Positions 26 through 39,348 of a DNA stretch of 64,000 bases are shown one piece after another. Position 1 is the stretch's first letter, and each line of letters begins with the position of its first letter. Source of the stretch: Turneriella parva DSM 21527 (lineage in GTDB: Bacteria > Spirochaetota > Leptospiria > Turneriellales > Turneriellaceae); assembly GCF_000266885.1 (NCBI RefSeq), contig NC_018020.1:2046001-2110000 (forward strand), given 5' to 3'. The position numbers were made by a program, and so were the translations under genes. Below the pieces are notes generated by a model that was not told the origin of the DNA, searched no databases, and worked only from the letters and a program-made list of their open reading frames with translations.

Positions 26-109
26 CATGGTTCGACATGCTCACCATGACAAAATTATTTTTTTACTCTGAGCCAATTATTTGTCACCCTGAGCTTGTCG
101 AAGGGTGAC
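26..109. repeat. Dispersed palindromic repeat (REP-like), copy 1
   Basis: Two palindromic halves lie downstream of mltG. The first (26-50) has CATGG and ACCATG arms. The second (83-109) has GTCACCCT and AGGGTGAC arms around GAGCTTGTCGA. The same two halves, in the same order and orientation, recur inside proS at 38235-38290 with a shorter spacer. The sequence could form two hairpins in RNA and may act as the mltG transcript end, but no U-tract is obvious. Its family and mobility are inferred from the recurrence only. Confidence 0.75.
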
Positions 110-34796: not shown

Positions 34797-36008
34797 ATGT
34801 TCTCTTTACTCAAATCTCTGGCACGTGCCGGCGCAGACCTCGATGCGCATCGAAACCGCTACATCATCAATTGCAACGTGTTTGCGCTGATCGTCATTGC
34901 CACGTCGCTGCCATACCCCTTTATCTATCTGTACCTCAAAGTCGACATTGACCCCTTGCTACTTTCGGGCAGCGTCGTGTTTCTGTTCTCATACTCGATG
35001 GTGATTTTTCTGAATTTTCTGCGCGTGCACACCCTCGCCAAGCTGCTCTTTTTCGCGACCGCCGTCTGCCAGTTGTTCGGCATTTGTCTTGTATTCGGTA
35101 ATGAATCGGGTCTGCACCAGTTTTTCTATGCGGCGTTTGTTGGCGTGTTCTTTGTCGTCGATCGCCACCAGAAGATTCTGCTGTTTCCCGCGTTGCTCAC
35201 GCTTGCGGCGGAGTACCTGCTCATACAATACATTAACGCATATATTGACCCGATCGCCAGATTATCGCCCGACACGGCGCGCACTTTGAACTACATCAGC
35301 TCGGGCGCAGTCTTTACCCTGTTGGGTGCACAATGCCTGCACTTTTACTGGAGCAGCCTGCGCGGTGAGATCGACCTCGAAACCGCGCGCCACCAGTCAG
35401 ACAAGCTGCTGCTGAATATCTTGCCCGAAACGATTGCCGACGAGCTTAAGCGCAACGGTACCGTCGAGCCGGTCGAACACGACCTCGTGACTGTGGTATT
35501 CACCGATTTCGTCGGGTTTACCGCCAGCTCTGAAACTCGAAACCCTTCTGATCTGCTGCGGCAGCTCGACGATTGTTTCAGCGCGTTTGATGCAATCATC
35601 GAAAAGTATAATTTGGAGAAACTCAAAACGATCGGCGATGCCTACATGTTTGCCGGCGGTGTACCCGTCGACCTTAAAGACAACGCGGCCCGGTGTGTCA
35701 TGGCCGCCAAAGAGATTATCGCGTTCGTTGACAGCAGGCGTACCGAAGACCCGCGCTTCTGGCAGATTCGCATCGGCGTGCACACAGGGCGCCTCGTCGC
35801 GGGAGTCATCGGCAGAAAAAAATTCATTTATGATGTCTGGGGCGATACCGTGAACACGGCGAGCCGGCTTGAAGCAGCGGGCGAGCCAGGTAAAATTAAT
35901 ACATCCACCGAAACGTATAAGCTCATTAAAGACAAGTTTAGTTGTTTGTATCGCGGTGAGATTGCCGTGAAGGGCAAAGGCCCGCTTGCAATGTATTTTG
36001 TCGATTAG
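34797..36008 (+). CDS. Class III nucleotidyl cyclase, membrane-bound (1 of 4)
   Basis: The 403-residue protein has six transmembrane segments (about residues 28-185) and a C-terminal class III cyclase domain. Catalytic features are VVFTDFVGFTASSE (first metal aspartate), EKLKTIGDAYMFAGG (second aspartate and base-contacting lysine), RIGVHTGRLVAGVIG and FIYDVWGDTVNTASRLE (Asp, Asn and Arg of the active site). The K and D pair favours ATP, so cAMP is the likely product. ATG at 34797 is preferred over 34758. It ends within a 14-bp hairpin. Confidence 0.92.
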   Translation: MFSLLKSLARAGADLDAHRNRYIINCNVFALIVIATSLPYPFIYLYLKVDIDPLLLSGSVVFLFSYSMVIFLNFLRVHTLAKLLFFATAVCQLFGICLVFGNESGLHQFFYAAFVGVFFVVDRHQKILLFPALLTLAAEYLLIQYINAYIDPIARLSPDTARTLNYISSGAVFTLLGAQCLHFYWSSLRGEIDLETARHQSDKLLLNILPETIADELKRNGTVEPVEHDLVTVVFTDFVGFTASSETRNPSDLLRQLDDCFSAFDAIIEKYNLEKLKTIGDAYMFAGGVPVDLKDNAARCVMAAKEIIAFVDSRRTEDPRFWQIRIGVHTGRLVAGVIGRKKFIYDVWGDTVNTASRLEAAGEPGKINTSTETYKLIKDKFSCLYRGEIAVKGKGPLAMYFVD

Positions 36009-36030
36009 CGCACTTTGTGCGCTAATCGAC
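36000..36030. terminator. Hairpin between cyclase and yebC
   Basis: A perfect 14-bp stem GTCGATTAGCGCAC / GTGCGCTAATCGAC with a TTT loop spans the cyclase stop codon (36006-36008) and lies just before the convergent yebC stop. It is placed to end both transcripts; AAAAT follows on the plus strand, so it is not a classic U-tract terminator there. Confidence 0.65.
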
Positions 36031-36036
36031 AAAATG

Positions 36037-36850: not shown

Positions 36851-36883
36851 CATGTTATCATTATATGCAATCATGATAACATG
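36851..36883. promoter_or_regulatory. VapB operator palindrome overlapping the start codon
   Basis: A perfect 11-bp inverted repeat, CATGTTATCAT at 36851 and ATGATAACATG at 36873, is separated by 11 bp. A TTGACA hexamer (36847-36852) overlaps its left arm, and the right arm includes the antitoxin ATG at 36881. This is a likely autoregulatory operator. No -10 at 16-18 bp spacing is convincing; leaderless translation is possible. Confidence 0.7.
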
Positions 36884-37108
36884 ATTAGGACTCAGATATC
36901 TCTCGAAAGCGAGGTATACGAAGAGGCGAAAATTCACGCTGCTGAGAACGGTATTTCGCTCGCCGAGTTCTGCAGGCAAAGTGTAACCGAGCAGCTCGTG
37001 AAATACCGCAAGGCCGGGCCTATCGCACGCTTTGCCGGTATCTACGACGGTGACCCCAATGACAGTTCAACGGTCGACGAAGTGGTTTATGGCAAACGCT
37101 TCTTATGA
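36881..37108 (+). CDS. Ribbon-helix-helix antitoxin (VapB-like)
   Basis: The 75-residue protein starts with a ribbon-helix-helix DNA-binding domain (IRTQISLESEVYEEAKIHAAENGISLAEFCRQSV) and ends in an acidic/aromatic tail (ARFAGIYDGDPNDSSTVDEVVYGKRFL) likely to block the toxin site. Its ATG sits inside the right arm of a perfect palindrome, consistent with autorepression. It overlaps the toxin gene by 4 bp (ATGA). Confidence 0.88.
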   Translation: MIRTQISLESEVYEEAKIHAAENGISLAEFCRQSVTEQLVKYRKAGPIARFAGIYDGDPNDSSTVDEVVYGKRFL

Positions 37109-37512
37109 CAGAAAAGGTCTTCATCGACAGCGGCATTTTTATCGCCTATTTGAACAAGCGAGACCGTTGGCACCAACAGGCGCTCTACCTCTTTCAAGAG
37201 AAGAATATTCAGCCTTACACTTCAGAGCTGGTATTGTCTGAGACGTATTCGTGGTTCTTGCATCAGGCGGGTGAAGAGATTGCGCGGCAGTTTCGCCTGT
37301 TTGTGCACGCTATCCCTAAACTAAAGATCTTGTTTTCGACTGTCGACGCGCAGGTCGCAACTGAAGCAATGCTCGACCGGCATCGTGGGTCTAAACTGAC
37401 ATACGTCGATGCGGCGAGTCTTGCGCTGCTCGAAGCGCAGAAGATTCAGACGGTGTGGTCAACCGATTATCATCTGTCGCTGACCGGGCGCAAGATTAAA
37501 CCAGTGAAATAG
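37105..37512 (+). CDS. PIN-domain ribonuclease toxin (VapC-like)
   Basis: The 135-residue protein is a PIN-domain nuclease: KVFIDSGIFIAYLNKRDRWH (first acidic residue), TSELVLSETYSWFLH (conserved Glu), KLTYVDAASLALLEAQ (Asp pair) and VWSTDYHLSLTG (final Asp). Such toxins cut tRNA or rRNA when the antitoxin is degraded. Gene order and 4-bp overlap with the antitoxin fit a VapBC module. It is convergent with proS, 18 bp apart. Confidence 0.92.
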   Translation: MTEKVFIDSGIFIAYLNKRDRWHQQALYLFQEKNIQPYTSELVLSETYSWFLHQAGEEIARQFRLFVHAIPKLKILFSTVDAQVATEAMLDRHRGSKLTYVDAASLALLEAQKIQTVWSTDYHLSLTGRKIKPVK

Positions 37513-37530: not shown

Positions 37531-39348
37531 TTATTCCATCACCAGTTGAACCAATTCGGCTTCGCTGAGTTCGAGTTTTTCGCCACTGCGGCGCAGTTTG
37601 ACCTCGAGTTTACCCGATTCAATCGACTTTTTGCCGACGGTGACAATGAACGGAAAGCCAACCAGCTCTGCGTCGTTAAATTTAACCCCCGCGCGTTCGT
37701 CGCGGTCGTCGAGGTAAACGCTGATACCTTTAGCCTGAAGGTTCGCGTAAAGCTGATCAACGAATGCGATTTCGCTCTCGCTCTTCGCCAGCGACACGAG
37801 ATAAACCACAAAAGGGGTCAGGTTCTTGTGCCAAATCAGACCGCGTTCGTCGTGGTTCTGTTCGATCGATGTCGCCATCGTGCGGCCGACGCCGATGCCG
37901 TAACAGCCCATGGTCGGCGTGAGAGGTTTGCCGTTCGGGTCGAGCACCGAGAGTTTCATCTTTTCTGAGTACTTTTTACCGAGCTTAAAGATGTGGCCGA
38001 CTTCTATGCCGCGTGTTTCGGTAAGTTCTGCCTTCTTACATTGCGGACAAATGTCCCCGGCATGCGCGACGATCAGGTCATGGCCTTCTGAAATAGTGAA
38101 ATCGCGGCCTTCGGCGACGTTCTTGGTGTGGTAACCGGTCTTGTTCGCGCCGGTGATAAGGCCCGAGCGCCCTTTGAGGTGTGTGTCAAAGAAAACGCGA
38201 AGCGTTTTTCTGTTATCTGCGCTCTTGCCCTTGCCATGGTTCGACGGGCTCACCATGACCTTTTCGTCACCCTGAGCTTGTCGAAGGGTGCCTTCGACGT
38301 TTTCGCCATCCTTGTACTTCAGGCCAACTGGCCCGGCGTAGCCTGGTTCGGCGCCAGTGACGGCTTTTATAGTTTCTTCAGCTGCGAGCCAGTAGTCGGT
38401 TGCGCCGGCAAGGTTCTTCATCTTGATTTCAGAGAGTTCGCGGTCACCCTGAACGAAGCAGAGATAGATATTCTGCGCATCTTCAAAGATGACTGCTTTG
38501 ATAAAATCGCGTGGGTTTTGTCCCGTGAGCTTCGCGACTTCTTCAATGGTTTTCAGTGCGCCGGTTTCAAATTCGCTGGCAGTTTCGTTTTGGGCGGATA
38601 CAGATTCGCCCCTGCTGGGATTTTCAAAGAAAGCAGTCTTCTCTTGATTCGAGCGATAGCCGCACGCCTCGTCGCTGCAGAGCAGCAACGTCTCTTCACC
38701 GATCGACGAGGCGACCATAAATTCTTCAGAACCGCTGCCGCCCATATTGCCTGAGTCGGCCTCGACTGGTATCGTTTTTAATCCGCATCTTTCGAAAATG
38801 GCGCGGTAGGCCTCACGCATTTTCTGGTAGGTTTCGTCGAGTGACTTGTCGTCTGCATGAAACGAATAGGCGTCTTTCATGACGAATTCGCGGCAGCGAA
38901 TAAGGCCGTAGCGCGGGCGAATTTCATCGCGGTATTTGCGGCCAATCTGGTAGAGGTTGATCGGTAGCTGTTTGTACGATTGTAGAAAGCTGCGCGCCAC
39001 GTCGGTCATCGCTTCTTCGTGCGTTGGCCCCAGGGCGTAACCGACCTCATGACGGTCTTGCATCCTCATCATTTCTTTGCCCATGAGATCCCATCTGCCC
39101 GATTCTTGCCAGAGTTCAGCGGGGGTAATCACCGGCAATGTGACTTCGACGCCGCCGAAGCGGTTCATCTCTTCGCGAATAATCTGTTCAATCTTGCGGT
39201 GAACCATGTCGCCGAACGGCAGGTATGCGTAGAGGCCCGAGCCCTGTTTGCGAATGTACCCCGCTCGCGAGAGCAGGCGGTGTGAGGCAACCTGCGCATC
39301 GTTCGGATCGTTTTTTGAGGTAAAGAGAGGCAGCTGAGACGCGCGCAT
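37531..39348 (-). CDS. proS: Prolyl-tRNA synthetase with in-frame repeat insertion
   Basis: The 605-residue class II synthetase charges tRNA-Pro. Motif 1 region, motif 2 (YQIGRKYRDEIRPRYGLIRCREFVMKDAYSFH) and motif 3 (PTMGCYGIGVGRTMATSIEQ) are present, with the bacterial editing (INS) domain between motifs 2 and 3 and the C-terminal anticodon-binding domain. The length is about 30 residues above the usual 570-575 because the palindromic repeat at 38235-38290 is inserted in frame within INS, adding the stretch TLRQAQGDEKVMVSPSNHG. The reading frame stays open, so the enzyme must tolerate it. It is divergent from a cyclase gene only 12 bp away. Confidence 0.95.
   Translation of the reverse strand: MRASQLPLFTSKNDPNDAQVASHRLLSRAGYIRKQGSGLYAYLPFGDMVHRKIEQIIREEMNRFGGVEVTLPVITPAELWQESGRWDLMGKEMMRMQDRHEVGYALGPTHEEAMTDVARSFLQSYKQLPINLYQIGRKYRDEIRPRYGLIRCREFVMKDAYSFHADDKSLDETYQKMREAYRAIFERCGLKTIPVEADSGNMGGSGSEEFMVASSIGEETLLLCSDEACGYRSNQEKTAFFENPSRGESVSAQNETASEFETGALKTIEEVAKLTGQNPRDFIKAVIFEDAQNIYLCFVQGDRELSEIKMKNLAGATDYWLAAEETIKAVTGAEPGYAGPVGLKYKDGENVEGTLRQAQGDEKVMVSPSNHGKGKSADNRKTLRVFFDTHLKGRSGLITGANKTGYHTKNVAEGRDFTISEGHDLIVAHAGDICPQCKKAELTETRGIEVGHIFKLGKKYSEKMKLSVLDPNGKPLTPTMGCYGIGVGRTMATSIEQNHDERGLIWHKNLTPFVVYLVSLAKSESEIAFVDQLYANLQAKGISVYLDDRDERAGVKFNDAELVGFPFIVTVGKKSIESGKLEVKLRRSGEKLELSEAELVQLVME
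38235..38290. repeat. Dispersed palindromic repeat (REP-like), copy 2, inside proS
   Basis: The two palindromic halves seen at 26-109 recur here: CATGGTTCGAC...CACCATGAC (38235-38259) and GTCACCCTGAGCTTGTCGAA...GGGTG (38266-38290). The order and orientation are the same, with a 6-bp spacer instead of 32. It is read on the minus strand as codons within the ProRS editing domain. Confidence 0.85.

Follow-up and report, generated by a model that had tools for sequence, protein, structure and literature searches.

A pair of REP-type palindromes gained in frame within the editing domain of Turneriella parva prolyl-tRNA synthetase

The editing domain of prolyl-tRNA synthetase (ProRS) in Turneriella parva DSM 21527 contains a peptide encoded by palindromic DNA. 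Is this segment a mobile repeat that entered the gene, and does it change editing? In T. parva, in-frame palindromes occur in core translation enzymes while close relatives carry the empty site. It has long been debated whether REPs inside genes alter proteins or merely decorate them, and such empty-site relatives, together with a well-understood editing enzyme, make the question testable. We analysed a 64,000-nt stretch of contig NC_018020.1 (hereafter the window), the whole T. parva genome (4,409,302 bp, 2 contigs) and the other genomes of the order.

A two-part palindrome in proS

T. parva ProRS has the three Pfam domains of bacterial ProRS, namely the tRNA synthetase core, the editing domain (PF04073) and the anticodon-binding domain. 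The structure closest to its model is E. faecalis ProRS (2j3l), and the fold is that of a bacterial ProRS with an INS domain (2j3l_A, TM 0.80 and 0.85). The inserted DNA consists of two palindromic units in opposite orientation, built around the core TGAGC-NN-GTCGAA (Table 1). An earlier note on this DNA had described the repeat as an in-frame addition to the editing domain of an essential enzyme. We confirmed this, and the repeat-encoded peptide of 19 residues is real; the full gain relative to related enzymes is larger, at 27 residues, with eight extra residues (EG before and KGKSAD after the repeat peptide), and the repeat does not account for 24 of the 81 nucleotides gained.

Table 1. Window coordinates of proS, its gained segment and the related repeat pair
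Feature	Position	Strand	Basis
proS, 605-aa prolyl-tRNA synthetase carrying an editing (INS) domain	37531..39348	-	ORF, Pfam, PDB relatives
81-nt lineage-specific in-frame gain, residues 352-378	38215..38295 (about)	-	absent from 17/17 other genomes of the order; empty-site alignments
Inverted pair of REP-type palindromes, read as TLRQAQGDEKVMVSPSNHG	38233..38289	-	residues 354-372 of ProRS
One repeat unit, TTCGACAAGCTCAGGGT, CACCC/GGGTG arms	38269..38285	-	17-nt core match and arm test
Core of the other proS unit, with CATGG/CCATG arms and orientation opposite to the first; + strand sequence TTCGACGGGCTCA	38240..38252	+	core search and arm test
Intergenic pair of this kind, immediately downstream of the ORF named mltG (113-1123, -)	31..102		core search, arm test

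The same note had placed this two-part repeat downstream of mltG as well, a gene name that we take over from it as an assumption. This also held: the mltG-side pair (cores at window positions 31-43 and 90-102) has the same two arm types in the same orientation as the proS pair, with core starts 59 bp apart versus 33 bp in proS. The exact 17-nt core occurs twice in the window, at 86-102 and in proS, where shuffled sequences lead one to expect 0.18 matches even with up to three mismatches.

ProRS is present in 18/18 genomes of the order, and alignment with the T. parva enzyme showed that the segment is absent from all 17 others. A segment conserved among spirochaete ProRS enzymes, the finding that would have spoken against insertion, is thus ruled out among these relatives. 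In the nearest relative, the congener G016, ProRS is 95% identical and the match skips residues 352-378, which indicates a gain of 27 residues (81 nt), the repeat contributing 19. Three named records (L116-L118) also lack the segment; they agree in this region with genomes G012, G013 and G004 and so are not extra evidence. The proS insert is a lineage-specific gain. The loop that hosts it varies in length among other genera and species, which have unrelated residues and extensions there. No clean target-site duplication was seen in the proS empty-site alignments.

We favour, with a probability of roughly 85%, the reading that a REP-type pair was inserted into proS after the split from the closest sampled relative and is tolerated in a variable loop, with editing kept. 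A mobile palindrome, in the form of an inverted pair with its GTC flanks facing inward, would have entered proS by transposition or copying, in a stop-free frame and together with a few additional bases, a net addition of 81 nt. Having landed in an editing-domain loop whose length already varied, it would have survived for that reason, the peptide being tolerated and editing retained.

The repeat family and its possible mover

A genome-wide copy count and a search for a RAYT-type transposase had been proposed as checks. The palindrome core matched the T. parva genome 79 times, versus 5 times for the reversed pattern used as a control, and complementary arms (the inner three pairs, four of five pairs, or three of five including two inner ones) flank 64 of the 79 sites. 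The other 15 probably match by chance or as coding sequence; FDEL in the MetH of locus L275, for instance, is a core match in normal coding DNA. Among the armed units, GTC stands next to the core in 47, CTG or TTG in 12 and neither in 5. Arms covary among the 47 GTC units (CACCC/GGGTG in 14, CATGG/CCATG in 11, CATGC/GCATG in 7), and because differing arms stay paired, the folded palindrome is supported as the unit. Close pairs (up to 70 bp apart; n = 12, with units shared between pairs in one cluster) have their tags inside in 9 cases and outside in 3; none is in tandem. The family thus has the generic REP features of a short palindrome, many copies and a common core, and it lies predominantly outside genes, as 14 of the 59 units flanked by GTC or by CTG/TTG were counted, partly by hand, inside them. 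Three identical 33-nt CTTG-type units lie within about 440 bp in a region of low coding score (L097; G000:C1 2327626, 2327864 and 2328056).

How far does the repeat spread? Core counts are patchy across the order: 72 in G008, 34 in G013, 28 in G016, and 4, versus 6 for the control, in the congener G012. A 61-nt repeat query had no match among 72,556 plasmid records. The core, with a spacer of 0-3 nt, was absent from the 80 named ProRS loci (492,046 bases), and a wide spread of this core in other phyla was therefore not confirmed at these loci.

Which known class does the family resemble? Di Nocera et al. (2013, PMC3733652) describe GTAG- and CGTC-tagged REPs as short palindromes, single or paired, that are mostly intergenic, with some wholly within ORFs. 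Spirochaetes are listed there among the phyla with CGTC REPs, for which no dedicated transposase is reported, and Turneriella is not mentioned in that text. In a CGTC REP the tag (CGTC, or TGTC or CCTC) is unpaired at one end, and dimers are mainly head-to-head (HH, tags outside), the TT form being rare (PMC3733652). In T. parva, CGTC or TGTC is found in 40 of the 47 GTC units; however, GTC is base-paired with GAC in 24 of the 47, and tags face inward in 9 of the 12 close pairs, which is the TT form. With the tag so often paired and the orientation reversed, we do not file the T. parva repeat as a CGTC REP.

What could have moved the pair? It might be a REPIN that a RAYT mobilises, if not in cis then in trans. 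The inverted pairing of the units and the three Y1_Tnp genes in the T. parva genome resemble REPIN/RAYT systems, with the difference that no Y1 gene is flanked by the repeat. Each of these genes (L026, L027 and L028, at 4.29 Mb, 25 kb and 1.28 Mb of G000:C1) is instead flanked by its own, different, long palindrome, perfect or nearly so. The L026 palindrome recurs at 15 sites in the genome when up to two mismatches are allowed. The T. parva Y1 genes may thus mobilise other short palindromes. None of the three has the repeat core, within one mismatch, alongside, so that a RAYT adjoining the repeat was searched for without success and the implied RAYT-type link was not borne out. Of 17 Y1 loci read across the order, in stretches of 2-3.3 kb, 16 lack the core within one mismatch, and the remaining locus has a single one-mismatch core. 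Three relatives with 10, 22 and 28 cores have no Y1_Tnp match, two of these genomes being only 82-83% complete. More generally, core and Y1 numbers do not run in parallel in the order: in G007, a 100% complete genome, 10 cores stand against no Y1 match, and in G004 3 cores against 4 Y1 matches. We therefore regard a RAYT-driven REPIN as unlikely, and no enzyme could be linked to the repeat.

Consequences for the editing domain

Does the insert impair ProRS? The earlier note had raised the possibility that mistranslation editing is affected. A stronger version is that the insert weakens post-transfer editing, leaving T. parva to put up with, or even make use of, increased Ala-for-Pro mistranslation. 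The setting gives this idea some appeal: the insert lies inside the sole PF04073 domain of the genome, that of ProRS itself. As neither YbaK nor ProXp-ala of this family was found as a free-standing protein, lost editing would have no compensator from the same family. Several observations make it highly improbable. Editing residues of E. coli ProRS include K279, a GXXXP motif, D350 and H369, to which K284, G336, G339, P340, D388 and H407 of T. parva ProRS presumably correspond. All six are invariant in 33/33 aligned ProRS, and the insert falls between P340 and D388, leaving them intact. A K279A variant has served as an editing-defective enzyme (PMC3973320).

The AlphaFold2 model, built from 33 sequences, has a mean pLDDT of 82.5. 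Residues 357-376 fall below 50 and the strands on either side are confident; a second stretch below 50 covers residues 135-157. The insert loop is thus predicted to be disordered, and other lineages have lengthened it too. Decay of the editing domain would be expected after a loss of editing. Between T. parva and G016 the editing domain has dN 0.058 and dS 1.05 over 177 columns. Its 18 amino-acid differences divide into 7 on each branch and 4 undecided, a coarse test, since the dS values approach or exceed saturation and there are few changes to count. ProRS outside the editing domain evolves more slowly (dN 0.011 and 0.021), the editing domain being the faster part on both branches. Because the editing domain does not evolve faster in T. 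parva than in its sister, there is no sign of relaxed selection, and impaired editing is not supported. On the evidence of sequence and model, with a predicted disordered loop, unchanged invariant residues around it and equal branch changes, the suspected effect on editing was not upheld. The insert seems harmless to the enzyme and is probably neutral, in line with the favoured reading of a tolerated REP-type pair.

That the repeat is kept for a role in mRNA or DNA structure inside proS, beyond mere tolerance, is scarcely credible: folding of the sense strand surpasses that of shuffled sequences (z −2.35, equalled by 5 of 200 shuffles), but any palindrome would fold well and the repeat is absent from every relative.

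In-frame copies in other enzymes

Tolerance of the peptide in a loop would also explain why MetRS, MnmG and other enzymes contain in-frame copies. Similar peptides had been said to occur in unrelated proteins, and within the T. parva genome they do. Genes with copies, as named by NCBIfam, encode MnmG, MetRS, MetH, dihydrolipoyl dehydrogenase (Lpd), an Mrp/ApbC-like ATPase and a FabG-like reductase, which has two copies. Ten proteins were scanned, and for four of these the match was absent or only weak. The GTC type is mostly read as LRQAQGD or (V/L)SPS(N/K). Genic copies of the CTG/TTG type give PSTGSGQ-like peptides, in a frame that the usual GTC type would end at TGA. Units inside genes make up 8 of the 47 GTC-type and 6 of the 12 CTG/TTG-type units (Fisher's test, 0.026). 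This difference is a hint only, since the gene calls (from a codon score trained on 32 window ORFs) were partly made by hand: sites 1407866 and 1691650 (GTC type) and 204510 (CTG/TTG type) scored under the cut-off and were included manually. In addition, one local array accounts for three of the 12 CTG/TTG-type units.

Family alignments showed how these copies are distributed. In MetRS (10 sequences aligned, four of them also read in DNA), T. parva has a pair, and the congener G013 (L217) has one copy, belonging to the other type (GYPSTGSGQV), in the same loop; the other 8 sequences have no copy. In MnmG (11 aligned), T. parva has one unit (TLRQAQGD) and G013 (L231) has a pair in another frame (FDKLSP...RPEPVEGR) in the same loop, such a peptide being absent from the remaining aligned sequences. 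At this MnmG loop, G017 (L235 / L241) has an unrelated, repetitive-looking extension of about 50 residues. The Lpd copy is found in T. parva only, of 10 aligned, as is the MetH copy, of 12, which is a small replacement (+3 aa) and not a clean insertion. The two-species cases in MetRS and MnmG represent either independent insertions or an old copy since changed; the differing frames favour independence without proving it.

In-frame REP insertion, tRNA synthetases included, is already documented, if rare, and T. parva shows the same phenomenon in another genus. According to PMC3733652, intragenic REP dimers or groups contribute 20-30 aa, the targets include tRNA synthetases in three species, linkers and loops are suggested as tolerant sites, and recB of two Xanthomonas species has REPs at about the same site. 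Rickettsia palindromic elements (RPE), cited there as palindromic repeats found in frame in many proteins, are alike in this respect and belong to a different phylum. For Turneriella itself we found no published description of these repeats; the T. parva genome paper (PMC3746428), searched for repeats, transposition and palindromes, mentions none of them, and the peptide strings returned a sole match in print, on ADAM proteases, unrelated by its title.

Loop reuse in two species and a stop-free variant in genes are the most interesting remainder. In the CTG/TTG variant the TGA of the PST-S-G frame is gone, and its genic copies are all in that frame, as if it were fit for life in genes. Together with the repeated MetRS and MnmG loop hits, this might mean that the repeat moves about and supplies core enzymes with linker peptides, landing preferentially in certain loops, an idea that we regard as speculative and rather doubtful.

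Close to proS, two small ORFs lie at window positions 36880-37512, between a yebC-like gene and proS; by their sequence they resemble a VapBC-type antitoxin and PIN toxin pair. Between two converging genes, a perfect 19-nt inverted repeat at 35995-36035 is, judging by its sequence, likely a two-way terminator.
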